47,156 nt of DNA, from positions 1 through 47,156 of IMG/VR virus record IMGVR_UViG_3300046313_001174. One strand, 5' to 3'. Under the pieces are notes generated by a model. The model saw only the letters and a list, made by a program, of their open reading frames with translations. It was not told the DNA's origin and ran no database searches. Every line of letters starts with the position of its first letter. Position 1 is the first letter of the stretch. A program made the translations under genes and the position numbers. This document shows, one piece after another, positions 1 through 37,785 of this stretch. Source of the DNA: a virus.

Positions 1-1164
1 ATGAAGCTATCAATGCACCACATTCTGTGGACCAAGGATCCAAACAAACTCGGACTGTTCCCAATCTACCTTCGGATCACAATCGACCGCAAGTCCACAC
101 ACATAAGTTCCGGGGATTTTATCGCTGAAAGGCAATGGGATAAGAAAGAGGAGCAGGTCAAGAACCACCCACTTGAAAGCGACATTAACGCCAGGCTTCG
201 TGCTTCGAAAGCTCAAGTTAGTGGAAAGTTCAATGAGCGATTACTTGCGGGTAAGAAAATCAGTGCCAAAGAGCTGAAGGCAGTCTTTGCAGGTGGTAGC
301 GATATGCACAATCTCTTTGACTTTGCGGAAATGTACCTTAAAGAGGTGCAGCACAAACGTAGTGTAAGAACAATCAGTGCGTATCGAAAGCACCTCTTGC
401 GCTTTGAGGAGTACGTGGGCAGCAAGCAGTTGTGTTTCGAGGATGTGACTCCGGAATGGCTAACGGCGTATGAATCTGCATTACGTGAGGGCACGCTGAA
501 AAGAAAGCGAAAAGGCGTCCTAAGTAACAACACAATCCATTCGCTGTTTAAGACTTTGAAGCTTCTTTTCAATGCGGCAAAACGAAAAGGCATCATTACA
601 GACTATCCCTTTGACCGCTACGAGAATCCAGTTTACATAGCTCCGATTAAGGACTGCTTAAGTCTTGATGACATAAAGAGAATTGAGGATTTTGTCGACT
701 CCACACAAGATGAGCTATTGAGGCAAGCGGCCGTGTACATTCTACTAGGTATATCAACTGGCTTACGCATTTCGGACTGGAAGCAGTTTGACCTGTCGAA
801 AAACATCAAAGGGGGTAGTATCTTTCTCCGCGCAAAAAAGAACGGAGAATGGGTGACCATGCCGATAAACAACATACTCCAAAGGAATTTAAAACGTATC
901 GAGCAAATTCCCCTAACCATGACGGAGGCAAAAATGAACGCCAAACTGAAGGTGCTGGCCAAAGCCGTAAACCTAGACAACCCTCTAACATCACACACGG
1001 GCCGACACACCTTCGCAACTACGCTTTGTGCTGATCGTGGGATTAGCTCGGAGACCTGTGCTGAACTAATGGGTATCACCGTAAGTACTTGTGTGGAGAG
1101 CTACTACCGGGTGTCTAACAGGAAGATTAACAGCGAGACGATAAGAGCCTGGGAGGGGCTGTAG
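1..1164 (+). CDS. int: Tyrosine integrase, Bacteroidota phage type
   Basis: Site-specific tyrosine recombinase that would integrate and excise the phage genome. The 387 residues match the usual family length. An arm-type DNA-binding domain occupies about 1-90, a SAM-like core-binding domain about 103-200, and the catalytic domain about 215-387. Visible catalytic residues are R256 (TGLRISDW), a Lys at 279/280, H332 and R335 (SHTGRHTF), and Y368 in ESYYR. The second His that usually follows Gly in the LGH motif is replaced by Ile (MGIT, I359). It starts on the first base of the window, so the true start and promoter cannot be checked. Its stop is 3 bp from the convergent hicA stop, and its last 64 bp recur at 1995-2058. 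Confidence 0.96.
   Translation: MKLSMHHILWTKDPNKLGLFPIYLRITIDRKSTHISSGDFIAERQWDKKEEQVKNHPLESDINARLRASKAQVSGKFNERLLAGKKISAKELKAVFAGGSDMHNLFDFAEMYLKEVQHKRSVRTISAYRKHLLRFEEYVGSKQLCFEDVTPEWLTAYESALREGTLKRKRKGVLSNNTIHSLFKTLKLLFNAAKRKGIITDYPFDRYENPVYIAPIKDCLSLDDIKRIEDFVDSTQDELLRQAAVYILLGISTGLRISDWKQFDLSKNIKGGSIFLRAKKNGEWVTMPINNILQRNLKRIEQIPLTMTEAKMNAKLKVLAKAVNLDNPLTSHTGRHTFATTLCADRGISSETCAELMGITVSTCVESYYRVSNRKINSETIRAWEGL
1101..1164 (+). repeat. Direct repeat copy 1: functional integrase 3' end
   Basis: The last 64 bp of the integrase gene match 1995-2058 at 59 of 64 positions. The five differences all fall on third codon positions and are synonymous (Arg, Thr, Ile, Arg, Glu codons). The repeat includes both Tyr codons of the YYR catalytic motif and the stop codon. 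The two copies flank the HicBA-like cassette. Confidence 0.93.
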
Positions 1165-1167
1165 ATC

Positions 1168-1401
1168 CTAACAGTTTTTTTCAGCCCAAGCATATAAATC
1201 TATAAGACTGCAACCTATGGTTGTGCAGCATGATTTTAGATGTGTGGCAGGAATTTCCTTCTCATCCCCCCACACAACTAGTGTACGTTTCCCTTTTTTC
1301 ACGTACTGGTGGTGGCTACCTGAGGTTCTATTTTTTACGAAACCTTGATGCGTAAGGAACAAAATCCAACATCTAGTTGGTAAAGGCCTAAAATTACCCA
1401 T
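1168..1401 (-). CDS. hicA: HicA-like mRNA interferase toxin
   Basis: Small toxin of the HicA (YcfA) family, which cleaves mRNA in the cytoplasm when not bound by HicB. It has 77 residues; family members are usually 60-80. The diagnostic GSHH at 28-31 supplies the catalytic His and is followed by a basic strand (QYVKKGKRTLVV) and the KEIPATHLKS segment typical of the fold. Its ATG directly abuts the hicB stop codon on the same strand, so the two are probably co-translated, with antitoxin first. The gene is convergent with int, 3 bp between stops. Family assignment rests on motif reading only. Confidence 0.78.
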   Translation of the reverse strand: MGNFRPLPTRCWILFLTHQGFVKNRTSGSHHQYVKKGKRTLVVWGDEKEIPATHLKSCCTTIGCSLIDLYAWAEKNC

Positions 1402-1803
1402 TTAAGCTAAAAGAAGTTCACGTGTTTTGACAGAGCCTTCCTCAGCATTAAAATCTTTTAGATCCCCATTACTGTCTACATACACTTTTGAAAAGTCTTT
1501 ATTCTTAAACTTATCTTTTTCCCAACCAAGCGAGAAAAGTTCCTTTTCCCTATCGCGTATGGATAAATTGTTGAGATAAATCGCAAAGTCTTTAATTGAA
1601 AATTTCATCATCTCTTGAGCTCGATCTTCCGTATTTCCGTATCCGGATATATCTAAAGTAGGTGAATAGACCACATACTGCTTAGTATCTTTGTCTACGA
1701 AATGGTATACGAATAGTACTAACTTTATGCCATCTTTACCGATGTGCAGCTCTTCCTTAAGTGGCCCTTTTACATTCTGTATTTCAATTTTGATAGATTC
1801 CAT
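1402..1803 (-). CDS. hicB: HicB-like antitoxin
   Basis: Antitoxin that would bind and neutralise the adjacent HicA-like toxin and probably repress its own promoter. The first in-frame ATG is at 1803, giving 133 residues; a TTG six codons upstream is less likely. The HicB core is visible at about 40-75: a strand reading YVVYSPTLDISGYG followed by a helix with NTEDRAQEMM. The C-terminal part shows no clear ribbon-helix-helix or HTH motif that I can name. It is upstream of hicA on the same strand, and a 12-bp palindrome lies 68 bp before the start. The cassette is AT-rich compared with the structural genes, which suggests acquisition. Confidence 0.72.
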   Translation of the reverse strand: MESIKIEIQNVKGPLKEELHIGKDGIKLVLFVYHFVDKDTKQYVVYSPTLDISGYGNTEDRAQEMMKFSIKDFAIYLNNLSIRDREKELFSLGWEKDKFKNKDFSKVYVDSNGDLKDFNAEEGSVKTRELLLA

Positions 1804-1870
1804 AAGCAGCTTTAAAATCAAATTATCTTTTCGATTGGTACAATGTTAATTCATATTTCGAACATATGTG

Positions 1871-1882
1871 TGCAGGCCTGCA
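1871..1882. promoter_or_regulatory. Palindrome upstream of hicB, candidate operator
   Basis: TGCAGGCCTGCA is a perfect 12-bp palindrome, preceded by the 8-bp palindrome ACATATGT at 1862-1869 and followed by an A/T tract. Its place just ahead of hicB suggests a binding site for the antitoxin. No clear TAnnTTFG-type -7 element was found beside it, so the operator role is an inference. The rest of 1804-1994 is AT-rich sequence with no gene. Confidence 0.35.
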
Positions 1883-1994
1883 ATTTTTTTAAAAAACTCA
1901 AATAAAAAGTTATATTATTTATTGTAAATATTATATTTTTTAAGTTATGGTCTAGGTTTCTGTTAATTCACTTTTATGCGCTCTATTTGGAAAA

Positions 1995-2058
1995 CTACTA
2001 CCGAGTGTCTAACAGGAAGATTAACAGCGAGACAATTAGGGCCTGGGAAGGGCTGTAG
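1995..2058 (+). pseudogene. Remnant of a second integrase 3' end
   Basis: The 64 bp encode the same last residues as the intact integrase (YYRVSNRKINSETIRAWEGL and a stop) but differ at five synonymous third positions. No upstream integrase sequence remains, so it is a broken copy. The purely synonymous divergence means the copy evolved as a working integrase allele before it was cut off; it is not a fresh duplication. Together with 1101-1164 it brackets an 830-bp segment holding the HicBA-like pair. Confidence 0.9.
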
Positions 2059-2117
2059 CTTTTTTATCTGAACCATTCGTCGTGTGGAGATTACCTCTTG
2101 TGTAATTCATACCTGTT

Positions 2118-2152
2118 TTTGGCTGGGTGTGTGGCAATAACGCATATTATTG
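2118..2152 (+). promoter_or_regulatory. Candidate promoter with overlapping inverted repeat
   Basis: TTTG at 2118-2121 and TATTATTG at 2145-2152 resemble the Bacteroidota -33/-7 pair with one mismatch in the -7 and a 23-nt spacer. GCAATAA (2134-2140) and TTATTGC (2147-2153) form a perfect 7-bp inverted repeat over the -7 element, as an operator would. Transcription would begin about 20 nt before the ATG at 2179. Confidence 0.4.
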
Positions 2153-2178
2153 CGTCGAATCTTAAACCAAATAAAACT

Positions 2179-2742
2179 ATGAAAACGAAAAAATATCTAA
2201 CTATAAGCCTTGAGGGGTATAAGCCATTTAGTGTAGAATTGGTATGTGATGAAAAAATATCCGATAAATACACTTGTTATTTTCATAAACTTGACCCGAA
2301 TGAAACTGCCGATGAGCAGCCAAATTTTATTGATTTTTTCAAAACTAATGGTTTCTCATACTGGCGGCAACAAGATGGAACTATCTGTTTTAAACCAAAT
2401 GCCAAAGGAAACGAGATGTTTTGCAGGTATATATGGATGATTTGGCATCAAATCCATATTAAAAATAGTACCCCAAATTCATCGATTAGCTGGATTCCTG
2501 AAAATATAGGCCGAGAGCATATTTTAAACGCCATGGCTCAAATTGACGAAGAAGGGGTTTCGATCAATAGAGCCGCTAGAAAATACGAAATTGTGTATGC
2601 TGCAAAAAAATACCCTCCTAAACTCTTAATTGAATATGCGAATGTATTTGCCAACGGTAACAATTTAATTGAGGGGGTAAGTACTCACCAAGCTAATGGC
2701 TACTTAACGAAACTGGGTTTTACTGTCGTTCCAAAACAGTAA
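2179..2742 (+). CDS. Protein with C-terminal ScoMcrA-like head domain
   Basis: Accessory protein of 187 residues starting at the ATG at 2179; an upstream TTG would add a poor leader. Residues about 111-184 (GREHILNAMAQIDEEGV ... YPPKLLIEYAN ... GYLTKLGF) match the pattern I know from the N-terminal head domain of ScoMcrA-type modification-dependent restriction proteins. The N-terminal 105 residues are unrecognised, and no HNH or GTPase motif is present. The nuclease part of such systems is therefore missing. It sits alone on the plus strand in the accessory block, with a candidate promoter before it and a strong terminator after it. A role in defence against other phages, or an adaptor function, is an inference. 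Confidence 0.62.
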   Translation: MKTKKYLTISLEGYKPFSVELVCDEKISDKYTCYFHKLDPNETADEQPNFIDFFKTNGFSYWRQQDGTICFKPNAKGNEMFCRYIWMIWHQIHIKNSTPNSSISWIPENIGREHILNAMAQIDEEGVSINRAARKYEIVYAAKKYPPKLLIEYANVFANGNNLIEGVSTHQANGYLTKLGFTVVPKQ

Positions 2743-2834
2743 GAGGAGACGCTCCCCGCAATACCCGCACGCATTACTGAAAAGCATTTTTTGGGTGCAA
2801 AATAGTGTTTATTCACACTTACTGAATTAAAAAC

Positions 2835-2868
2835 AAAGAAACCCGACGCCTAGGTGCCGGGTTTCTTT
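2835..2868. terminator. Intrinsic terminator, probably bidirectional
   Basis: AAAGAAACCCG (2835-2845) and CGGGTTTCTTT (2858-2868) form a perfect 11-bp stem around a 12-nt loop, with T-rich sequence on the plus side and an A-rich tract on the other. It lies between the plus-strand gene ending at 2742 and the minus-strand unit ending at 3010, so it can stop both. Confidence 0.85.
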
Positions 2869-2929
2869 CTGTTACGGGCTGTAGTATTAGCCTAAAATAA
2901 TGTCCTTTTTCATGTGTTTTGGGGTTTAG

Positions 2930-2978
2930 TTCATTAAAACTTTTGTTCATTAAAAACTTTTGCTCATTAAAACTTTTG
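2930..2978. repeat. Three tandem copies of a 16-17 bp repeat
   Basis: TTCATTAAAACTTTTG occurs at 2930-2945, again at 2946-2962 with one extra A, and at 2963-2978 with C for the first T. The array lies in the untranslated gap downstream of the minus-strand unit. No function is evident. Confidence 0.85.
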
Positions 2979-3009
2979 TAAAGTTACCTATTTTACGCAA
3001 TAATCAAAA

Positions 3010-3528
3010 TCAAATTGCTCTATTTAACGACACGTCATCGCCGGATAGAAAAGTATTAGGGCTAATTATCTCTTTACTTTTGTAATCTTGTATGAAGACC
3101 CGATTGAAGCCTGATAAAGCGTGTTTTGCTATGACTGTTAATCTAATGAATGCTGATTCGTCGTCCCATGTGTCCTCAATGGCCTCTGTAGTTCTAATTT
3201 GTAGCGCATGTAAGTTAAAGTGATCGTCGCTCTTTTTCTGAGGTAGATAAGCTATGAAATTATCTTTAAGTTTTATGTCACGACCCCGTAAATTATTGCC
3301 ATTATACGCCCCCACAGGTTTATAAAAAGTTAATTCGACATGTACGTCAAATATATCCGAATTTGTCATATTAACTATCTTAAAAATATAATTGACACTG
3401 CCGTCTATTGTAACTCGGCTGATTTGTTCTGATAATACGATATCCGGTTTTTTATTCAAGAGAAAAACAACGAGAAAAACGTAAGACGAAATTAAACCCG
3501 CTAGAACACTTATAATGAAATTGCTCAT
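3010..3528 (-). CDS. Membrane-anchored protein, function unknown
   Basis: The 172-residue protein has one N-terminal hydrophobic segment at about 4-25 (FIISVLAGLISSYVFLVVFLL) followed by a basic NKK, so it is probably anchored in the inner membrane with a soluble C-terminal domain. The soluble part looks beta-rich (alternating strands through residues 35-150), but I do not recognise it. It is last in a minus-strand series 4745-3010 that runs behind the repressor, ending before the 2835-2868 terminator. That position is typical of genes expressed from a prophage. Confidence 0.7.
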   Translation of the reverse strand: MSNFIISVLAGLISSYVFLVVFLLNKKPDIVLSEQISRVTIDGSVNYIFKIVNMTNSDIFDVHVELTFYKPVGAYNGNNLRGRDIKLKDNFIAYLPQKKSDDHFNLHALQIRTTEAIEDTWDDESAFIRLTVIAKHALSGFNRVFIQDYKSKEIISPNTFLSGDDVSLNRAI

Positions 3529-3584
3529 TTTCTTTTCGTCAGTGATTTATGTGCTGACGCCGCACATTTAGGTATTAGTGATAT

Positions 3585-3896
3585 TTATTTAAAAGCCTTC
3601 TTCAGTAGTTTAATCTCCTGCTCTATCTCATCTAGTCGTGCAATCGGGGATTTCGCTTCAAGTAGCCTAACTGGTGTGATGCCTAATAGCAGCCAATCGA
3701 AGCTATATCGGTATGTGGTGTTCAACGCAACAATGTGCTCGAGTGTTGGGTACCTTTTGCCTATTTTCATCTGCGTCAATACTTGTGACACATCACCTAG
3801 GGAGGCCATCACTTCCTTATAAGATAGCTTATGGCCGTAATGGATCTCATCAATGGCGTCAATCACTCGGGCACGTACTTGTTCGTTAATAGTCAT
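3585..3896 (-). CDS. XRE-type helix-turn-helix regulator
   Basis: This 103-residue protein follows the pattern of small Bacteroidota DNA-binding proteins. Residues about 5-70 hold a degenerate XRE fold (VRARVIDAIDEI ... YKEVMASLGDVSQVLTQMKIGKRYPTLEHIV), ending in FDWLLLG, the counterpart of the NWLLTG found in the S24 repressor here. A C-terminal helix (LDEIEQEIKLLKKAF) may be a short coiled coil for dimerisation. It lies 11 bp downstream of the secreted-protein gene on the same strand. It probably regulates its own operon or the lysogeny switch, but the target is unknown. Confidence 0.72.
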   Translation of the reverse strand: MTINEQVRARVIDAIDEIHYGHKLSYKEVMASLGDVSQVLTQMKIGKRYPTLEHIVALNTTYRYSFDWLLLGITPVRLLEAKSPIARLDEIEQEIKLLKKAFK

Positions 3897-3907
3897 GGGT
3901 TGGTGGC

Positions 3908-4624
3908 TTAAAAATTCTCTATGTCTCTTTTTTTAGCTTGTTCGGCTCTTTGTTTAATTCGCATCTCGACCTTATATTTTTCGTCAGAAACTAGCTTGTG
4001 AATTGCTTTGTCATAGAGTATCGTGTATTCAAAAATACTTATCTCCCCAAATAGGTTAAATGTAGCATCGTAGTTATAGTAGCAAACTACGCCGGGGATA
4101 TTGGTGTTGTATGTGTGTTTATACCTTTTGTCTGTTTTAACAGTCTCTATGCCTAAGCCATTGACAAATGTGTGAGGAGTTTCTTCGTGTTTCATTTCGG
4201 GTTTTCCGTATTTCAAGGTTAATAGTTCATCAACACCGCTCCCCTCAATATTGATTTCATAAAGTTCATCTTTATAGAACGAAAGTCCCACGCGGTGCAG
4301 CTTGATTTTGTCATTAATAGCATATTCCCCCAAATAAAAATTCCTTACCTCTTTTAGAGGTGAGCCAAAAAAAGTAGAAGTTACAGAACTAGTATCTGAA
4401 AACAACTCAAAAGTTACTTTTTGGTCATTCTTATCGACTTTTTTAATGTACTCTCTTGCTGTTCGGATGTCAGTCTTTCTGGCAAGTTCAGGGATATCAC
4501 TCACATGCATACCTAGTTGAATTTTGCCAAACCCTTTTATTTTTAAGTCGGAAGGATTCTCGTTTTCTTGCGCACGAATTTGGTGTAGGGACAAAATGAA
4601 GATGAGTAAATAGATGCTTCTCAT
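3908..4624 (-). CDS. Secreted protein, function unknown
   Basis: The 238-residue protein begins with a clear Sec signal peptide (MRSIYLLIFILSLHQIRA, cleavage before QEN), so it should reach the periplasm or beyond. The mature part contains KIKGFGKIQLGM at about 28-39, a phrase seen in small exported Bacteroidota proteins, then alternating beta strands and a highly charged helical tail from about 205. No enzyme motif is visible. It lies behind the repressor on the same strand and may alter the envelope of the lysogen. A -7-like TAAATTTG on the minus strand at 4701-4708 has no matching -33. Confidence 0.68.
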   Translation of the reverse strand: MRSIYLLIFILSLHQIRAQENENPSDLKIKGFGKIQLGMHVSDIPELARKTDIRTAREYIKKVDKNDQKVTFELFSDTSSVTSTFFGSPLKEVRNFYLGEYAINDKIKLHRVGLSFYKDELYEINIEGSGVDELLTLKYGKPEMKHEETPHTFVNGLGIETVKTDKRYKHTYNTNIPGVVCYYNYDATFNLFGEISIFEYTILYDKAIHKLVSDEKYKVEMRIKQRAEQAKKRDIENF

Positions 4625-4744
4625 AACTGTTAAAATTTAAAAAGTGAATGAATGTAAAACGCCTGGCTACTACCAGTCGCCATTAATTAAGCATAAATTT
4701 CAAATTTAGAACAGTTTACCCCTGATCGGGATAGCTATTATCGA

Positions 4745-5410
4745 TTACTCGAGACGAATCACCCCAATAACTAGGGCGACACTTCGAATCTCTGACACAG
4801 GCACTTCAAAATCATCGTAGTCCTTGTTGTCGCTTTTACACACGACGGACTCTGCACTATTACCTTTTGTGAGGCGCTTCATAACGATACCTTGACTAAT
4901 CGTGTCAATCACGTAAACCTTATTCCACTGCACAAATAGCAATTCCTTTATAAACCTACACGCCACAACATCCCCACTACTATACTTGGGATACATACTA
5001 GATCCACGTACCGGTATCATGAAATCAATCTTAACTCCGTCAAACAAAGGGATGACATACCGGTCTTCTATGGTGTCGAAATTCACTCCTTGAACAGTTG
5101 AGTCGCCAATCCCCGCAAAAGCTTCTAACTGAAGTACCGGAATGCCCTCTGCTGATTTAGCTGGTTTTGCTACCAGTGTCTCTTTTTTTAGCATATCACC
5201 TTTTCCGGTTAAGAGCCAGTTAGCATCTATGTCGGGATAAATAGATAATAATCTATCTATCGCATCTGAATTTAAGGCTGTATTTTTCTGTGTTCCCTTA
5301 AAACTTCCATAGGTCATTCCAATTTTTTCAAAAAATAATTCTTTCGAAACTCCCTTATAATCAGATAGATACAAAAATCTTTCCTTAATATTAGATATTT
5401 TTTTATCCAT
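4745..5410 (-). CDS. S24-family phage repressor (CI/LexA-like)
   Basis: Lysogeny repressor of 221 residues. An N-terminal HTH occupies about 1-70, ending in the Bacteroidota-typical IDANWLLTGKGDML. A linker carries the probable self-cleavage dipeptide A99-G100 (EAFAGIG). The S24 peptidase fold follows, with Ser138 (GSSMYP) and Lys178 (VMKRL) as the catalytic dyad. In this family RecA filaments stimulate autocleavage, so DNA damage should trigger induction. It diverges from the Cro-like gene at 5492 across an 81-bp gap containing a strong rightward promoter and a perfect palindrome, which it probably binds. Confidence 0.94.
   Translation of the reverse strand: MDKKISNIKERFLYLSDYKGVSKELFFEKIGMTYGSFKGTQKNTALNSDAIDRLLSIYPDIDANWLLTGKGDMLKKETLVAKPAKSAEGIPVLQLEAFAGIGDSTVQGVNFDTIEDRYVIPLFDGVKIDFMIPVRGSSMYPKYSSGDVVACRFIKELLFVQWNKVYVIDTISQGIVMKRLTKGNSAESVVCKSDNKDYDDFEVPVSEIRSVALVIGVIRLE
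5242..5255. promoter_or_regulatory. Possible secondary operator inside the repressor gene
   Basis: TAGAT and ATCTA form inverted arms around a 4-nt spacer. The same TAGAT/ATCTA arms bound the 18-bp palindrome in the divergent promoter region, where the spacer is longer. It is coding sequence, so chance is possible. Confidence 0.25.
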
Positions 5411-5413
5411 TTG

Positions 5414-5446
5414 TTTGTTTTTTAGATAATTTATTATCTATATTTG
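5414..5446 (+). promoter_or_regulatory. Rightward early promoter (pR equivalent)
   Basis: TTTG at 5414-5417 and TATATTTG at 5439-5446, spaced by 21 nt, fit the Bacteroidota TTTG / TAnnTTTG consensus exactly. It points at the Cro-like gene and the early operon. Transcription should begin near 5453. Confidence 0.82.
5423..5440. promoter_or_regulatory. Repressor operator palindrome
   Basis: TAGATAATTTATTATCTA is a perfect 18-bp palindrome that fills the spacer and touches the -7 element of the rightward promoter. Binding of the S24 repressor dimer here would block polymerase. The binding itself is inferred from position and symmetry. Confidence 0.75.
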
Positions 5447-5491
5447 CATAAGCAATCAGGAACGCAAATAAGTACCTAAATGTAATATAAA

Positions 5492-5734
5492 ATGCTAAAA
5501 AATCAAATACATACTCCTATGGCTTCAAAACCTACGATTCGAAGAAAAAGCGTGAAGTTGACAAGAGAGCAAAAGCGCGATTTTACAAGTTTTGTTAAGT
5601 CGCATCACACGCTTCAAGACGCTTGCGATTTTTTGGACTTGACCCCCAACTCTGTTCGCCGAATTATGGCTGCTGGCACAGCAAGTTCAACGACTATCGA
5701 GAAGATTTTCTCAATCATTCCTGTAAACCGATAA
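5492..5734 (+). CDS. Cro-like small HTH protein
   Basis: First gene to the right of the early promoter, divergent from the repressor, which is the usual place of a Cro-type antirepressor. The 80 residues are basic at the N-terminus (IRRKSVKLTREQKRDF) and contain a helix-turn-helix-like stretch DACDFLDLTPNSVRRIMAAG at about 43-62. A second ATG at 5519 would give 71 residues, and the sequence does not decide between them. It probably competes with the repressor for the palindrome at 5423-5440. Function is by analogy, not from a recognised family. Confidence 0.68.
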   Translation: MLKNQIHTPMASKPTIRRKSVKLTREQKRDFTSFVKSHHTLQDACDFLDLTPNSVRRIMAAGTASSTTIEKIFSIIPVNR

Positions 5735-5746
5735 ACCAAAATCCCC

Positions 5747-6052
5747 ATGACACAAGAAGAAGTAAGACTTAAATGTGTGGAGCTATCTATCAAGCACTAT
5801 TCTGAACCTGGCATATCAACTGAGGCCAGACTTGCGCACGCTAAAAAAATCGAGGAATATGTCAGTGAGCCTACTAACCGTAGAATGCTAGAGATGTTTG
5901 AATCTTCGCGCGATCTTGACTGGTCTGCGGGAGAGCGTCTTTTAGAGGGACAGCAGAAGGCAAAAAAGAAAAAGGGCTTAACCTTTCTACCCAATGCTGA
6001 TCTCTTGTTCGACCCAGTAAGAGAGTTTCTTTCCAGGAAAAAACAGGACTAA
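5747..6052 (+). CDS. Early protein, function unknown
   Basis: The 101-residue protein is charged and mostly helical, with a lysine run KAKKKK at about 71-76 in the middle of the C-terminal half. No motif is recognised. It follows the Cro-like gene by 12 bp and is co-directional, so it is in the early operon. Its stop overlaps, by 4 bp, the stop of the convergent small gene 6049-6270. Confidence 0.65.
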   Translation: MTQEEVRLKCVELSIKHYSEPGISTEARLAHAKKIEEYVSEPTNRRMLEMFESSRDLDWSAGERLLEGQQKAKKKKGLTFLPNADLLFDPVREFLSRKKQD

Positions 6053-7010: not shown

Positions 7011-8168
7011 ATGTCGCACGCTATCCTATCCCCATCAGGCGCCTCGCGTTGGTTCGCCTGCACTCCTTCGGCTAGGTTCGAAGAGAAGTTTCCAGACAAG
7101 ACAAGTGCTTTTGCCCAAGAAGGTACAGTAGCTCACTCATTAGGTGAGCTGCTTATCCGCCAAAAGCTTAATTGGGTTGACAAAAAGACTTTCAAAGCAG
7201 CTTTTGCCGAGTTCGAGGCAAACGAATACTACAGCGAAGAGATGCTAGAACATTGCAATGATTACGCAGATTTCGTATGTGAGAAGTTTGCCGAAGCACA
7301 AGCAAGAACTCCAGACGCAAAGCTTTTCTTAGAACAGCGCCTTGACATGACCGAATATGTTCCCGAAGGTTTCGGCACCGGTGACGCAGTTATCGTTGCG
7401 GATATGTTGATGGAGACAATTGATCTGAAGTACGGTAAAGGCGTGGCCGTAAACGTACACGAGAATAAGCAACAAATGCTTTACGCTTTAGGCGCACTTA
7501 AAGACTTCGATATCCAATACGACATCCAAGAGGTCCGCATGAGTGTGTATCAACCCCGTATCAACAACATTGCTTCCTTTATCATTAATAAGAACGAGCT
7601 GTTAACGTGGGCAGAGACAGAACTAAAGGCCAAAGCAGAACAGGCCTTTGCGGGTGAAGGTGAATACGTGCCTGGTGATCACTGCCAGTTCTGTAGAGGT
7701 CGGGCGGTTTGCAAAGCTCTTGCTGATAAGAACCTAGAGCTTGCAGCTTACGAGTTCAAGGACCCGAACATGCTTGATGATACAGAGATTGCCGATGTGT
7801 TGTCACGTGCTAAGCAGTTTACGAATTGGATTGGTGCAGTTGAAGACTATGCCTTTGACCAAGCGTTGAATTTCTCCAAGAAATGGCCAGGCTTTAAGCT
7901 GGTAGAAGGAAGAAGCAATCGCAAGTACTCCGATCCGGATGCAGTGGCAAATGCTTTGATAGGTGCCAAATTCTCCGAGGAGATAATTTTCACCAAAAAG
8001 CTACTTGCCTTAACTAACCTGGAGAAGGAGATTGGCAAGAAGTCTTTCAATGATATCGTCGTGCCTTTCATCATCAAGCCCGCAGGCAAACCTACCCTAG
8101 TACCGGTAACAGATAAACGGCCTGAGTTTACAGGCGTGGAGAGCGCTGTCAGCGACTTTGCAGAATAA
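7011..8168 (+). CDS. DUF2800 RecB/Cas4-like nuclease
   Basis: The 385-residue protein begins with LSPSGASRWFACTPSAR and has EGTVAHSLGE at about 36-45, the signature of DUF2800. Further motifs fit the PD-(D/E)XK fold: GTGDAVIVADMLMETIDLKYGKG at about 122-144 and a C-terminal cysteine cluster (HCQFCRGRAVC, about 224-234), with the N-terminal Cys17 possibly completing an iron-sulphur site as in Cas4. The family is thought to process DNA ends in phage replication and recombination. It is next to its usual partner DUF2815. Confidence 0.88.
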   Translation: MSHAILSPSGASRWFACTPSARFEEKFPDKTSAFAQEGTVAHSLGELLIRQKLNWVDKKTFKAAFAEFEANEYYSEEMLEHCNDYADFVCEKFAEAQARTPDAKLFLEQRLDMTEYVPEGFGTGDAVIVADMLMETIDLKYGKGVAVNVHENKQQMLYALGALKDFDIQYDIQEVRMSVYQPRINNIASFIINKNELLTWAETELKAKAEQAFAGEGEYVPGDHCQFCRGRAVCKALADKNLELAAYEFKDPNMLDDTEIADVLSRAKQFTNWIGAVEDYAFDQALNFSKKWPGFKLVEGRSNRKYSDPDAVANALIGAKFSEEIIFTKKLLALTNLEKEIGKKSFNDIVVPFIIKPAGKPTLVPVTDKRPEFTGVESAVSDFAE

Positions 8169-8204
8169 CTTAATTAATTTTTTTAAACCTAAAAACCCAA
8201 TAAA

Positions 8205-8762
8205 ATGAGCACACAAACTCAAACAACAAAGGTGGTTACAGGCGTTGTTCGCCTGTCTTACGCACATCTTTTCGAACCAGTCGCTATGGGCGAAAAAGAG
8301 GACAAGAAGTACTCGGTATCTATCCTAATCCCTAAAAAGGACAAGGAGACGATTGCTAAAATCGAAGCTGCCATTGCGGCCGCCACCGAACAAGGTAAAG
8401 CTAAATGGGGTGGTAAAATCCCAGCTAAATTAAAGCTTCCACTTCGTGATGGCGATGAGGATCGTCCGGATGACGATGCTTACGTAGGTCACTACTTCAT
8501 CAACGCTTCTACCAAGTCAAAGCCGGGAGTAGTTGACAAGGATTTGAACCCGGTACTGGATCAAGAAGAGGTGTACAGCGGTTGCTACGGTAGAGTGTCA
8601 ATCCACTTCTACCCCTTCGATACACAAGGTAGCAGAGGAGTTGCTGCTGGACTGAACAATGTTCAAAAGCTAAAAGACGGCGAGCCATTAGCTGGCAAGG
8701 CTTCTGCGCAAGATGATTTCTCCGACGAGCTTGAGCTTGAAGACGACGAGGATTTATTCTAG
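8205..8762 (+). CDS. DUF2815 ssDNA-binding protein
   Basis: The 185-residue protein has the DUF2815 pattern: VRLSYAHLFEPVAMGEKEDKKYSVSILIPK at about 17-46 in broken form, a basic middle, and GCYGRVSIHFYPFDTQGSRGVAAGLNNVQKL near 129-158. It ends in a strongly acidic tail (ELELEDDEDLF), like the tails by which single-strand binding proteins recruit partners. It probably coats ssDNA at the phage fork and works with the DUF2800 nuclease just upstream. A hairpin follows the stop codon. Confidence 0.87.
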   Translation: MSTQTQTTKVVTGVVRLSYAHLFEPVAMGEKEDKKYSVSILIPKKDKETIAKIEAAIAAATEQGKAKWGGKIPAKLKLPLRDGDEDRPDDDAYVGHYFINASTKSKPGVVDKDLNPVLDQEEVYSGCYGRVSIHFYPFDTQGSRGVAAGLNNVQKLKDGEPLAGKASAQDDFSDELELEDDEDLF

Positions 8763-19828: not shown

Positions 19829-20554
19829 ATGCTAAACGAAAGACAGAAGCGCTTTTGCGATGAATACCTGATCGACTTGAATGCCACACAAGCTGCTAAG
19901 CGTGCTGGCTATTCCCAAAAAACAGCTTATTCGCAAGGACATGATCTCCTGAAGCATCCCGAAATTAAGCCATATATCGAAAAAAGGCTAGAAGAGGCTG
20001 CCATGTCAAAGACAGAGGCTCTAAAGCTAGTTTCTGACATTGCTAGAGGCAATCTAGGCGACTACTTCACCCCTCAAATCGTAAAAAAACGCCCATTGGT
20101 CACAAAAGCACTCAGCACACTCGTCAAAGAGCTTCAAAAGGAGATTGATTTTGAGATTGAATTTGAGGCGTTGCTGCCTGATACCGACAAGGAGAAGACC
20201 AAGCAGAAGCTACTCATCCAGGCAAAGAAGCGAGAGCTATTGCGCATGCAGCTAGAGCTCAAACATAACCCGAAGGCAAAACGAATTGTCGAGGGCCCCG
20301 AGGAGCTTTTCGAGGAGATGCAGCTTAACATCAACCAGGTAGTGGCCGATAAGGTGAGAGGACGCATCAAGGCAGTCACACCAAGCGAACACGGGGTGAA
20401 GGTTGAGTTGTACTCTGCCGAAGCTGCACAGGCCACCATTCTCAAGATCCACGGGGCCTTCGAGAAGGACAACGCGCAAAAAAAGGTGGAGATCCAAGCG
20501 CCTTTCACTGAAGAGCAAGTTGACAAGCTTATCACCGAACTACGCAAGAAGTAA
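19829..20554 (+). CDS. terS: Terminase small subunit
   Basis: DNA-recognition subunit of the packaging motor, 241 residues from the ATG at 19829; a TTG seven codons upstream is rejected. The N-terminus (MLNERQKRFCDEYLIDLNATQAAKRAGYS) is the classic Terminase_2 HTH start, which binds the packaging site. The C-terminal half is helical and charged, as expected for oligomerisation and contact with the large subunit. Its stop and the large-subunit start share one base (TAATG), so the two are translationally coupled. Confidence 0.93.
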   Translation: MLNERQKRFCDEYLIDLNATQAAKRAGYSQKTAYSQGHDLLKHPEIKPYIEKRLEEAAMSKTEALKLVSDIARGNLGDYFTPQIVKKRPLVTKALSTLVKELQKEIDFEIEFEALLPDTDKEKTKQKLLIQAKKRELLRMQLELKHNPKAKRIVEGPEELFEEMQLNINQVVADKVRGRIKAVTPSEHGVKVELYSAEAAQATILKIHGAFEKDNAQKKVEIQAPFTEEQVDKLITELRKK

Positions 20555-21993
20555 TGAAGCTAAAACCGCTTGAAGCTAGTATTTTCGCAGGCCTAAAGCC
20601 TGAGCTCAAAGAGCAGCTTAAGGCGTCTGGTGTGGTGCCGGTTAACGACGTGTTTTTACCCTATTGGCACAACAGCAACAAAATTAACCTGTTTTACGGC
20701 TCCTACGGTTCAGGTAAATCGGTCTTCATCGTTGACAACTTCATCAACCACGCACTTGAAGACAAGTACTTTCGGTGCTACTACGGACGTAAGGTCTTGG
20801 AAGACGTGCGAGGATCAGTCCACAAGACCATTACCGATCAGCTTGAAGAGCGACGAGTTCATAACCTCTTCGATTTCTCGACCAAGCCCAACGGCTCGAT
20901 GAACATTGTCTGCAAGGAGAATCGAAACGAAATGATACCTTTCGGGGCTAACAACGCCGCATCGCTTAAGTCAATCAAGGACCCGACGCACTTCTTTTTG
21001 GAAGAAATGGACCAGTTCACCTTCAAGGATTTCGGTATTGTATATTCGCGCCTCCGCACCACGAAAGCCCTAACGCAGCTCTATGGCGCCTTCAACACAG
21101 AGCGCGTGTTCCAGTCACACTGGATACGCACGATGCTGTTCGATGGGGAGTTTAGCGCACAGGCCACAAAGCTTCTTTGCAACTACACCGATAACCACTT
21201 CATTGACCAGGGCGACTACTTCTCCAAGCTCCAGCTCATGGCAGGGGGCAATCAGGCGTTCTTGAACGCAATCTCCAAAGGCGCATGGGGTATGATCCGT
21301 ACCGGTTCAGAGTTCTGGACGCAGTTCGATGAGACCCGACACGTTCGCCAGGTGGAGCTTGATAAGCACACCACCATACACGTAACACTCGATGAGAACG
21401 TGAATCCTTACGTCACACAGACCCTCTGGCAGATCTTCCCAGGCAGCCAAAGCCTCAAACAAGTCGAAGAGCTGTTGTGTGAAAGCCCTAAGAACAACGC
21501 ACCCAAAGCGGCTAAGGAGCTTATCACATGGCTCGGTGAGCGTGATTACCGACCGGTTATATTCGTGTATGGTGACCCCTCGGCAAACAAACGCAGTACC
21601 GTTGACGAGAACAGCGCCTCGTTCTACGACAAGTACATATCCGAACTACGAAATGCGGGCTTTTCGGTGGTTAACCGAGTGAAGAAGTCAGCTCCAGAGG
21701 TCGCCTCCTCGGCCGACTTCATTAACTCGATCTACGAATCAAACTACGGTGGGTGGTCGATAACCATCAACGCTGACTGCCTTAAATCCATTGAAGACTA
21801 CATCCTTGTCAAGTCAAGCCCCGATGGGCACATGGCTAAACCCAAGATTAAAGACCCTGATACGGGCATTACCTATGAGCCTCAAGGTCACATAAGTGAT
21901 GCGAAGAGGTACTTCATAACCACTGTGCTAGAGAGTGAATTTAAGGCCTTCAAGTCACGTAAATCACGGATGTTTGGTTATTCGGTAGGTTAA
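20554..21993 (+). CDS. terL: Terminase large subunit
   Basis: ATPase/nuclease of the packaging motor, 479 residues. Walker A is GSYGSGKS at about 49-56 and Walker B is FFLEEMDQF near 148-156. The RNase H-like nuclease domain begins near 335 with FVYGDPSANKRS, which supplies the first catalytic Asp; further acidic residues follow towards KDPDTG and HISDAKRY. Overall layout is that of PBSX/SPP1-type large terminases. The C-terminal ends in RMFGYSVG. Confidence 0.95.
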   Translation: MKLKPLEASIFAGLKPELKEQLKASGVVPVNDVFLPYWHNSNKINLFYGSYGSGKSVFIVDNFINHALEDKYFRCYYGRKVLEDVRGSVHKTITDQLEERRVHNLFDFSTKPNGSMNIVCKENRNEMIPFGANNAASLKSIKDPTHFFLEEMDQFTFKDFGIVYSRLRTTKALTQLYGAFNTERVFQSHWIRTMLFDGEFSAQATKLLCNYTDNHFIDQGDYFSKLQLMAGGNQAFLNAISKGAWGMIRTGSEFWTQFDETRHVRQVELDKHTTIHVTLDENVNPYVTQTLWQIFPGSQSLKQVEELLCESPKNNAPKAAKELITWLGERDYRPVIFVYGDPSANKRSTVDENSASFYDKYISELRNAGFSVVNRVKKSAPEVASSADFINSIYESNYGGWSITINADCLKSIEDYILVKSSPDGHMAKPKIKDPDTGITYEPQGHISDAKRYFITTVLESEFKAFKSRKSRMFGYSVG

Positions 21994-34053: not shown

Positions 34054-37000
34054 ATGGCATTAACTCGCGAAATCTTCTTATTCTTCATCGTCGATAGCTT
34101 CGGGCAATGTTACTATGTAGACGCGTTGGGTAAAATCCAAACGTGCCAACCGGGAGATCCTAACAGTTGGTTACCCCAAGCCCCGCATGGTTGGTCAGAC
34201 CAACAAATAGGCTACGGGCGGAATACGAAGTACTGGGGATTGAACCGTTCGTATTCTCAATCATTGAGATTCATCAACGAAGGGGCCACAATACTTCGCC
34301 ACTTGCTATATGCTAAACGTGGGAGTGAGGAACAGATTTACCTAGTTGTCAACAAGTATAACGATTTAACCGATACCTACGAAGGCTACTACAAAGGTGA
34401 AATCGACCTGATGAACAACGTCGATGACGTGCCGCTCGATGGTATCACGGTTAACCTGATGGAGGGCGGTTTATTAAAGCTGTTTAAGGCCTACGAGAAC
34501 ACCACATTTGAAATCCCGTGCGACGGGTCTATACCCGAAAACCTTCAAGTCAATATCGAAGGACTAATGTTCCATGCCCTGTTTACCTATAACACCGTAA
34601 CTTCTCAAGTAACATCCAGAGGGACAATCTTACCGATTGTTTTTCTAAACCAACAAGGTAGTGAGGCGGGAGTTATTGGGACTGATCAGGCGCTTGAGGT
34701 ATTCGACCCGACTAACGGTGCCGCATTCAGCTCTTTGTTGAACAACAGCTCTAATTACCTATTCATGAGTAATAAGGAGATACACGATGTAAAAATTTCA
34801 GGCACGTTGAATTTTTATGGGGCTTTAAGTAACGCAAGTTTAGTTGTTTGGACAAGTCTTAGCAATAGATACCCACTGATCAATTCAATCACAGCAAGTA
34901 GAGTGCCTACAGGCGGTATATCTGCTGAAAACAACTATAACGTAGACGTGACCATACCAACGCTTGCGGCAGGGGAGGCGGTATTTGTGATGCTAATCAC
35001 ATCAGATAACTCGGTGAGTATTGGATTGACCACAACGAATCTGTTTGTGACTTTCGATAGTCGATTTACAGATAGTCCTGTTTGGGGGTTAAAGCCCTAC
35101 GATTTACTATCGTTGCTTTTGAAAAAAATATGCTACACAGCCTATACGTATCCGGAGAATAGGATTTACGAATTGCAGAGTAATCTATTGCAGCAACACA
35201 GTAATCTAGTACTCACCTCGGGAAGTGCTTTGCGAAAAGAGCGTTCTGCGGTAATTAAGACGAGTTTGTCTGAATTCTTTCAAGCTTTCGATGCCCAGCT
35301 ATGCGCAAGCATGGGTAACGTTCAAACCCTTTCAGGCGAAACGCTATTTTTTGAGCAGCTAAACTACGTCTTTGATACTAGTCGTGTCTCCATGGAATTA
35401 GGCGAAGTAGCGAAGTTTAAAATCACGCCCGCTACGGATTTGTATTTCGATTTGTTGAAAATTGGGTATGCCGAACAGAAATACGACGAGCGTCAAGGCA
35501 ATAGCGAGTGGAACACAACAGCACAATATAAGGCGCCAGTTAAGAAAGTTAACAAAGAGCTAAATAAAATTAGCCCTTATCGAGCGGATGCGTACGGGGT
35601 TGAATACACACGTACCCTTCTACCAACATCGAACTCGACCAATAATAAGAGTGACAATGATACATTCTTGCTAAACATTGATTTGAGTAAAATCAACACC
35701 GCGCAGGCGTATGTGAACGGTGTTACAGGTAACTATTATGGCAGTGGGTATTTTTTGCCAGACGCTGGGAAAGGGTTAAACCGAGGTAAACGAATGGCCG
35801 TTGAAAACATCACGGGGGAGGGTATTGCCGCACAATTCGATGTCGATACGGTTGATAGCCCAGGTGACGTGATTAGGTACGTAGGAAGCAATACCGAGGC
35901 CTCCTTATCTTTTAAGCTCCAATTTAACTTCAGGGGGGACTTGTCTAAGTATTACTACGATTTAGGTCCTTTATGGTGGCAGGGTAACGTAAGGAGGAGT
36001 TTACCTGCTGGGGTCTACTATGCTTTTTTTAATATCCGGCACAACAACACCGTTCTATATACCCAAGCACTAACGCTTTCAGGGGGTCAAGTGAGTAACT
36101 TTACAATCTCGAAGCACTTTCCGAATTTTGACTTGAAGTTTGCCGACCAATTTCAGTTCGAAATACTATACAGCACAAAAGACCCTAGAAGCCAAAGCAA
36201 CAACGTTAACGAACTAGGTGATGAATCCAATGGGTATCTGTTTGTGTTCAACATCGAAGAGCTTACGTTGGTCATAAGTGATGATAACGCTACACCTGTT
36301 TACGGACTTACCAAGAAAAATTACGACAGTAGCTCTTTGCCAAATGCAAGCCAAGCATATAACATTGAGGAGCTCTCACCGGTTAGACTGCTCTCGAAGC
36401 AAGCGGGTTACATCAAGAGCCTATTGTACAATCAGCTTGATCGCAATCTAGTTTTCCAAGTCGCTGATAAGAATAGCTCACTCTCCACAACGCTGAATGG
36501 TGTAACGGTAATGGATGGCGTGGACGTGCCGTTAGGTACACTACCTGGGGAAATACTCTTTCGCCCGTTCTATTTTGAATTCCAAACCAAGGTGCCTACT
36601 AGCTTCATCGACCTCGTTAAGAGTTCGGCCAATGGACACATCAAATTCAGCTACTGCGGTAACGACTTCTACGGATTTCCAGTCGACATCAAAGTTAAAC
36701 CCGCACTCGAAGATGCCCAGGAGTGGAAACTGCTTTGTAGTCCCATTGTGGATTTAAAGAACCTCATCGAAATAGAATATACCGGATTAGATAACATAGA
36801 CATTATGAAATACAACCTTGCCGCAACACATCTTTCACCCGTGAAATTCGTACAACTCGGGTTCATGCCGAAAGAGAGATATAATTTCTTGCACATCGAC
36901 CAGGACTGGTTTATCAACCAAGTGGGTTTTTGGCCATTTAAAGAGAACTATTTCCAAAAATGGCAAAAAAACGATGTGCTAGAACTGCAATGTATTACCA

Positions 37001-37785
37001 ATAGCCTCGCTCCAGTAACAGCAAGCTTGATTGACAGCTCAGGTACTGTAATTGATACGTTCATCTACGAGCTGATAAACGATAACGCGGTTAAATCCCC
37101 CTTGCAGTTGTGGCAAGCCAGCTATCCGCTGTCATCGCTTGAAGAGGGTATCTACTACTTAAAGTTAACAGCCGGCACGGGGAATACTACCTCGGTAATG
37201 ATCAGTGAGGGGCTGCACGTTAAAGAACGGTGGCCAATGACCTTGTTGTTTGAATACAGCAGTACTCGAAATCGACAAGCGACCGTGTTCACAAGCGGCT
37301 ATGCACCGTCGTTTAGGGTAGAGGCATGGCTAGATGAGTATATGCCAAACGCTAAATATGCTATCTACGAGGACCAACCGGCCAACCTTGAGATGCTGAA
37401 CGCTATCCCTTACATGAACTGCACATTGAATGTTGGTGATAATGGCGGAGTGCCTGCATGGGTGATTCGTTTAGTCGACAGAATCTTACTACTCAATAGA
37501 GTGTTGATTGACGGTGTCGGATACACTCGTGAACAAGACGCTAAGTGGGATAAAATCGACGTCCCCTTGTGGCCTAAAAAATACTACAAAATACAGCTTC
37601 GAGAAAGTGAGAATAGTGATTTCGTTGCTGTGTACGCTGACGGCTCAAATACTTCAGATGGATCGGGCGGATCAAACGGTTCTGGAGGCGATACATTGAC
37701 AGTTGTCTACAACATCAACACGGATGCTTTCGGTGATGGAGCAGACAACACCGAGACTATACAAGTGACAAAACTAATCAAATAA
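34054..37785 (+). CDS. Large baseplate/tail tip protein
   Basis: The 1243-residue protein follows the tape measure by 3 bp, the position of distal tail and tail-tip proteins in siphoviruses. It is beta-rich, with many Tyr and Asn, and ends with a Gly/Ser-rich linker (GSGGSNGSGG) and a short C-terminal strand region. I can name no domain with confidence. A role in the baseplate hub with receptor contact is likely. Confidence 0.72.
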   Translation: MALTREIFLFFIVDSFGQCYYVDALGKIQTCQPGDPNSWLPQAPHGWSDQQIGYGRNTKYWGLNRSYSQSLRFINEGATILRHLLYAKRGSEEQIYLVVNKYNDLTDTYEGYYKGEIDLMNNVDDVPLDGITVNLMEGGLLKLFKAYENTTFEIPCDGSIPENLQVNIEGLMFHALFTYNTVTSQVTSRGTILPIVFLNQQGSEAGVIGTDQALEVFDPTNGAAFSSLLNNSSNYLFMSNKEIHDVKISGTLNFYGALSNASLVVWTSLSNRYPLINSITASRVPTGGISAENNYNVDVTIPTLAAGEAVFVMLITSDNSVSIGLTTTNLFVTFDSRFTDSPVWGLKPYDLLSLLLKKICYTAYTYPENRIYELQSNLLQQHSNLVLTSGSALRKERSAVIKTSLSEFFQAFDAQLCASMGNVQTLSGETLFFEQLNYVFDTSRVSMELGEVAKFKITPATDLYFDLLKIGYAEQKYDERQGNSEWNTTAQYKAPVKKVNKELNKISPYRADAYGVEYTRTLLPTSNSTNNKSDNDTFLLNIDLSKINTAQAYVNGVTGNYYGSGYFLPDAGKGLNRGKRMAVENITGEGIAAQFDVDTVDSPGDVIRYVGSNTEASLSFKLQFNFRGDLSKYYYDLGPLWWQGNVRRSLPAGVYYAFFNIRHNNTVLYTQALTLSGGQVSNFTISKHFPNFDLKFADQFQFEILYSTKDPRSQSNNVNELGDESNGYLFVFNIEELTLVISDDNATPVYGLTKKNYDSSSLPNASQAYNIEELSPVRLLSKQAGYIKSLLYNQLDRNLVFQVADKNSSLSTTLNGVTVMDGVDVPLGTLPGEILFRPFYFEFQTKVPTSFIDLVKSSANGHIKFSYCGNDFYGFPVDIKVKPALEDAQEWKLLCSPIVDLKNLIEIEYTGLDNIDIMKYNLAATHLSPVKFVQLGFMPKERYNFLHIDQDWFINQVGFWPFKENYFQKWQKNDVLELQCITNSLAPVTASLIDSSGTVIDTFIYELINDNAVKSPLQLWQASYPLSSLEEGIYYLKLTAGTGNTTSVMISEGLHVKERWPMTLLFEYSSTRNRQATVFTSGYAPSFRVEAWLDEYMPNAKYAIYEDQPANLEMLNAIPYMNCTLNVGDNGGVPAWVIRLVDRILLLNRVLIDGVGYTREQDAKWDKIDVPLWPKKYYKIQLRESENSDFVAVYADGSNTSDGSGGSNGSGGDTLTVVYNINTDAFGDGADNTETIQVTKLIK

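Follow-up and report, generated by a model that had tools for sequence, protein, structure and literature searches.

Why should the 3′ end of an integrase gene be found twice at the left end of this phage, once on the gene itself and once on the far side of a small toxin-antitoxin-like gene pair? The window, i.e., the whole stretch of 47,156 bases that was analysed, is a virus record from a temperate phage, and since its first base is that of the int start codon (ATG) and its last codon is a stop, we infer that it represents a provirus trimmed at gene borders. The int gene (1–1164, plus strand) is intact and encodes a tyrosine recombinase with arm-binding, SAM-like core-binding and catalytic domains (Pfam PF17293, PF13102 and PF00589). 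An S24 repressor gene is located at 4745–5410 and a terminase-like gene at 20554–21993. On balance, we read the record as a temperate Bacteroidota phage and the region behind int as a mosaic scar in its cargo (moron) zone. Further inside, at 7011–8762, a DUF2800/PD-(D/E)XK nuclease gene is followed by one for an Enc34-type single-strand DNA-binding protein, and the two may act together in recombination.

The first-pass annotation had reported that the last 64 bp of int (1101–1164) recur at 1995–2058 with five differences, all at synonymous third positions. Exactly these five are found (P 0.0004 for random placement) and the repeat stands as named, but its true start lies about 7 bp earlier, which adds two differences, one of them non-synonymous. 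The full direct repeat, 1094–1164 and 1988–2058, comprises 71 nt of which 64 are identical (90%; seven differences; BLAST E 4e-23). Its first copy is the 3′ end of int on the plus strand; the second, also on the plus strand, reads ENYYRVSNRKINSETIRAWEGL followed by a stop and is a remnant of a second int allele, recognised by the repeat match and by its GC content (0.479, against 0.343 in the left flank, 1165–1987, and 0.377 in the right flank, 2059–2884). Six of the differences are synonymous, the sixth falling in codon 366, and the seventh exchanges S367 of int for N367 in the remnant. Since asparagine is the residue of the family (11 of 12 aligned integrases, the exception being that of the window), S367 probably arose in the line of the intact int, with the remnant having kept the older state. 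Together with the synonymous-only divergence over 64 bp, the family residue suggests that the remnant was once part of a functional integrase gene, as had been proposed. Upstream of 1988 the similarity stops sharply (24% identity over 120 nt). The possibility, named at first as one that would speak against insertion, that the remnant matches a longer decayed int copy fails here: the best int match of 1822–1987 reaches only E 0.27, and a longer copy is ruled out as no int homology continues upstream of 1988. No description of such an int-tail footprint was found among the titles and abstract openings of the papers retrieved.

The 830 bp that the first-pass annotation had placed between the two int ends (1165–1994) indeed hold only two minus-strand open reading frames and AT-rich DNA, the name HicB being given there to a protein without family match. 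The HicA-like toxin gene (1168–1401, minus strand) is recognised by Pfam PF07927 HicA_toxin (E 1.4e-8; 35.2 bits vs. a cut-off of 27) and by PHROG 353 “toxin” (E 3e-6); it had no match in PADLOC or NCBIfam, and its profile matched a solved HicA weakly (E 0.1). It is arranged tail to tail with int, the two reading frames ending 3 bp apart. The HicB-like antitoxin gene (1402–1821, minus strand; 139 aa from a TTG, 133 aa from the ATG at 1803) encodes a protein that matched no family in Pfam, PHROGs, PADLOC or NCBIfam and, as a profile, no solved HicB, while its single-sequence structure model (mean pLDDT 54) was too poor for a fold search. The label was therefore taken from homologous gene pairs rather than from a family match. 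Homologues of the HicB-like protein were detected in 6 of the 395 genomes that make up a phylum-wide sample and in 21 of 294 genomes of the family of Pinibacter, a genus placed in Chitinophagaceae by NCBI. Seventeen loci were fetched with this query and 16 were checked (all but L033), with flanks of about 1.5 kb or less. A clear HicA homologue (39–65% identity) directly follows the hicB homologue in five of the 16 (L029, L083, L084, L085, L088), an adjacency that indicates a conserved two-gene hicB-hicA operon; three loci (L031, L034, L090) gave weak HicA matches only and the other eight none. No int match lies beside the hicB homologues within these short flanks. Given this pairing in other genomes, the two genes probably represent a known host-type toxin-antitoxin module rather than a phage-specific invention. 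Relatives of the HicB-like protein were not found in viral_contigs or phage records by an exact short-peptide scan, from which very near records were possibly left out.

Ahead of the pair lies an AT-rich intergenic stretch (1822–1987 in the GC profile) that is free of int remains. A promoter-like site on its minus strand (1849–1822, a consensus match only) suggests that this stretch probably holds the hicBA promoter. Passages of a review (PMC11594946) report prophages with HicAB loci, operons in the hicBA order and HicB proteins that lack a DNA-binding domain. With type II HicAB systems the pair shares the hicBA order, a HicA with a Pfam match and a HicB-like gene ahead of hicA, but differs in that its HicB-like protein matches neither a family model nor a solved HicB. 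By analogy with other type II toxin-antitoxin pairs, the likely role of HicBA is to stabilise the prophage or to counter other phages.

The cassette is not the only DNA that sets this phage apart. The integrase is 45–57% identical to those of 13 int loci, and even the nearest (L014) reaches only 57%. In L014 the int stop is followed by a single base and then by an open reading frame on the opposite strand (7142–7459), which is homologous to window 3585–3896. With one base at this place in the relative, the whole 2.4 kb at 1165–3584, and not the cassette alone, is extra in the window. Beyond the remnant this region contains a second cargo gene (2179–2742, plus strand; 187 aa from ATG) with a weak Psq-type helix-turn-helix (Pfam HTH_psq E 0.0033, below the cut-off); the C-terminal part of its product matches in 17 of the 395 genomes, mostly in much larger proteins (open frames of 160–1130 aa), and no match to this gene was found in viral_contigs or phages. 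A third cargo gene (3010–3528, minus strand), to which no function was assigned, was not found in L014. Three similar 16 bp direct repeats stand in a row between these cargo genes at 2925–2973 (TTTAGTTCATTAAAAC and two variants at 88%), a possible operator or remnant array. The gene at 3585–3896 (minus strand; 57% identity to L014:7160–7459), whose profile found L014's own record only, marks where the extra region ends on the right.

In composition, too, the region stands apart: GC is 0.466 in int, falls to 0.343 and 0.377 in the blocks on either side of the remnant and to 0.336 in 2885–3584, and is 0.436 in the next phage gene. Set between AT-rich cargo blocks, the remnant thus has the look of an old boundary. 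Morons, or cargo genes, are a familiar component of the lysogeny region of temperate phages. As is expected of such genes, those of the window form islands of deviant GC and are absent from the relative L014; they share with morons the position of extra AT-rich genes between int and repressor and the sharp borders. The likeness is one of category, and the window differs from it in that one border is marked by the 71 bp tail of a second int.

A survey of the sequence downstream of int in 23 int-relative loci revealed no duplicate of the int tail (0/23). Among these loci L071 and L076 are identical at this place, and in L009 and L010 the int ends are nearly the same and the open reading frames behind them differ; the more distant matches L015, L016, L018, L025–L028 and L079–L082 were omitted. 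When the first three reading frames behind int were compared across the 23 loci, eight similar pairs were obtained, three of them from the identical L071 and L076, and among seven int-adjacent genes that were scanned, one (in L005) encodes a GDSL hydrolase and the others had no match at or above the Pfam cut-off. Int-adjacent genes thus vary between relatives and few first reading frames are common to them, which is the pattern of a cargo zone behind int. The first-pass annotation had considered that an insertion should leave relatives with an empty site, int joined directly to the sequence from 2059 onwards, and that the insertion model would fail if all relatives had the same fixed arrangement without one. 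No precise int/2059 junction was found, which goes part of the way against insertion; yet absence in the viral scans is weak evidence because they used exact short-peptide matching and left out records very near the window. Neither a donor (int, then hicBA) nor a recipient (int, then 2059 onwards) was found in searches from which very near records were possibly left out, a degenerate pattern of the tail had no match in viral_contigs, and the DNA of 1–4200 had none in phages or plasmids. Among the genomes, int had matches in five of the 294 of the Pinibacter family (at 1e-40) and in one of the 395 of the phylum sample (at 1e-60), with only Pinibacter being close.

The terminase gene (20554–21993) tells of other relatives: two metagenome fragments (L019 and L020) carry it with 100% identity, which shows that IMG/VR does contain near relatives of the window phage. 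Neither int nor window 1–6000 had a match in the records of these two fragments, and int and the left-end DNA were unmatched in five terminase-relative records, four of which are only 6.5–15.6 kb long. Conversely, the terminase was not found in 13 int-relative records.

Where integrases of this family attach bears on any explanation that places an insertion at the int 3′ end. A Pinibacter soli prophage (L017; G013:C9 448353–491440) of about 43 kb resides in a tRNA-Cys gene and is bordered by 23 bp attachment repeats at 491418 and 448353, the first of which extends into the tRNA-Cys 3′ end, immediately ahead of int. Of the 20 loci for which upstream sequence is available, 13 have a similar core (at least 16 of 23 positions) at a distance of 141–216 bp ahead of the int match, or 12 of 19 without the Pinibacter source, compared to 31 of 1000 random segments; a clear upstream core is absent in the remaining 7 of the 20. 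Judging from the Pinibacter repeats and the upstream cores in relatives, integrases of this family seem to use a site ahead of their own gene, which appears to lie at a tRNA 3′ end. With up to three mismatches allowed, the window does not contain the Pinibacter core. As the window starts at the int ATG and its own left flank lies outside, its attachment has to be judged by analogy, and on these grounds the int 3′ end is probably a place for cargo that points into the prophage and not an attachment site. An attachment site of the phage's own at the int 3′ end was rejected by the same analogy, the Pinibacter repeat lying between tRNA-Cys and the start of int.

The best fit to these observations is a recombination scar between two related phages, one of the two origins that had been offered at first: the remnant has a phage-like GC content, carries N367 and differs by synonymous changes only over 64 bp, and its AT-rich flanks are absent from the nearest relative. 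We somewhat favour the view that the cargo was gained by recombination between related phages and that the tail of the displaced int was left behind. The ancestor would have had int followed by repressor-side genes, with some cargo possibly already in between, and the donor would have been a related phage or prophage with a slightly different int and hicBA tail to tail behind it. In a single recombination event, the sequence immediately ahead of hicB might then have been fused to the ancestor's int at a position 71 bp short of its end. The working gene would since have been the donor's, either entirely or in its 3′ part only, with hicBA carried along as cargo, while the old int would survive as a useless 71 bp tail. 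The abrupt left border of the remnant, with no decayed int beyond it, supports such a join. This right-hand join looks illegitimate, and while passages of De Paepe et al. (PMC3945230) document homologous exchange between diverged phages, they also hold illegitimate joining to be probably much less frequent, which counts against the join proposed here. Further points against the scar are that neither donor nor recipient was found among the records searched, that the nearest int is only 57% identical, that a clear upstream core is absent in 7 of 20 loci, and that the spacing of 3 bp between int and hicA would suit a targeted insertion as well. Most likely, the locus reflects ordinary mosaicism with toxin-antitoxin cargo and not a new kind of jumping element.

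Three other explanations would produce this footprint too, but they call for more components that have not been seen. A circular DNA carrying an int 3′ end and hicBA could have entered through a single homologous crossover within the int tail, in the manner of Campbell and with no specific recombinase. This would yield exactly the order int, cassette and int tail with direct repeats of 71 bp; we nevertheless consider it unlikely, as it requires a circle, of which there is no sign, and a crossover within about 71 bp of homology, and no other example exists in the 23 loci. A duplication of int within one phage or in tandem prophages, with hicBA acquired between the copies and most of the second copy then deleted, would also leave a truncated 3′ copy as at 1988–2058. 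Given the synonymous divergence, either two int lineages must be involved or both copies must have stayed under selection for a long time, and since the 166 bp upstream of the remnant contain no int remains, the deletion would have had to end cleanly; we regard this course of events as quite unlikely.

Elements that integrate into a gene and rebuild its 3′ end form a well-known class, and the other origin offered at first was a satellite-like passenger that targets phage integrase genes. Such a passenger would insert site-specifically into int 3′ ends, bring a replacement end and rely on a tyrosine recombinase in trans. With elements of the known class the locus shares a gene end that now stands beyond the cargo, and a replacement end with synonymous changes is the footprint that they would leave; it differs in having no recombinase of its own and in that the candidate target would be the integrase gene of the phage itself. 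No recombinase gene is encoded in 1165–1987, no inverted repeats of at least 12 bp occur at the cassette ends, integrases of the family appear to attach elsewhere, upstream of int, and the footprint is seen in none of the 23 loci. A foreign recombinase might still act at the int 3′ end. As the searches gave no viral relative for the HicB of the cassette and related pairs stand without int in their short flanks, a satellite that targets int is unsupported, and we consider it highly unlikely.

In favour of a passenger of this kind, a stretch at 2869–2884 (plus strand) would close a second bracketed module, 826 vs. 894 bp. This 16-mer resembles the int tail in 13 of 16 positions, with the last nine identical, and could be an older int end. 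Its level of similarity was reached by none of 500 dinucleotide shuffles and by none of 22 relatives in the 2.5 kb behind their own int, and among 52 gene ends of the window by two, int itself and the unrelated 34054–37785. When aligned locally with gaps, the site reaches a score of 20 and the best place in 2059–3584 lies elsewhere with a score of 26, a value reached by 212 of 300 simple shuffles. With the evidence mixed and the gapped alignment giving no backing, a third int tail at 2869–2884 was kept as a lead only. Directly before it lies a hairpin of 13 pairs (2835–2868), terminator-like on the minus strand. It is tempting, if very doubtful, to see in the int 3′ end a serial docking point at which modules of about 0.8–0.9 kb arrive with a new int end, the older ends being pushed outward (71 bp at 1988, 16 bp at 2869). 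If relatives turned out to confirm such a series of tails, cargo would have a recurrent entry point at the int end, and the leftovers would show in which order it was gained. Under the recombination scar that we favour, the displaced integrase tail is a readable fossil of phage mosaicism, and it helps to order the gain of toxin-antitoxin cargo.
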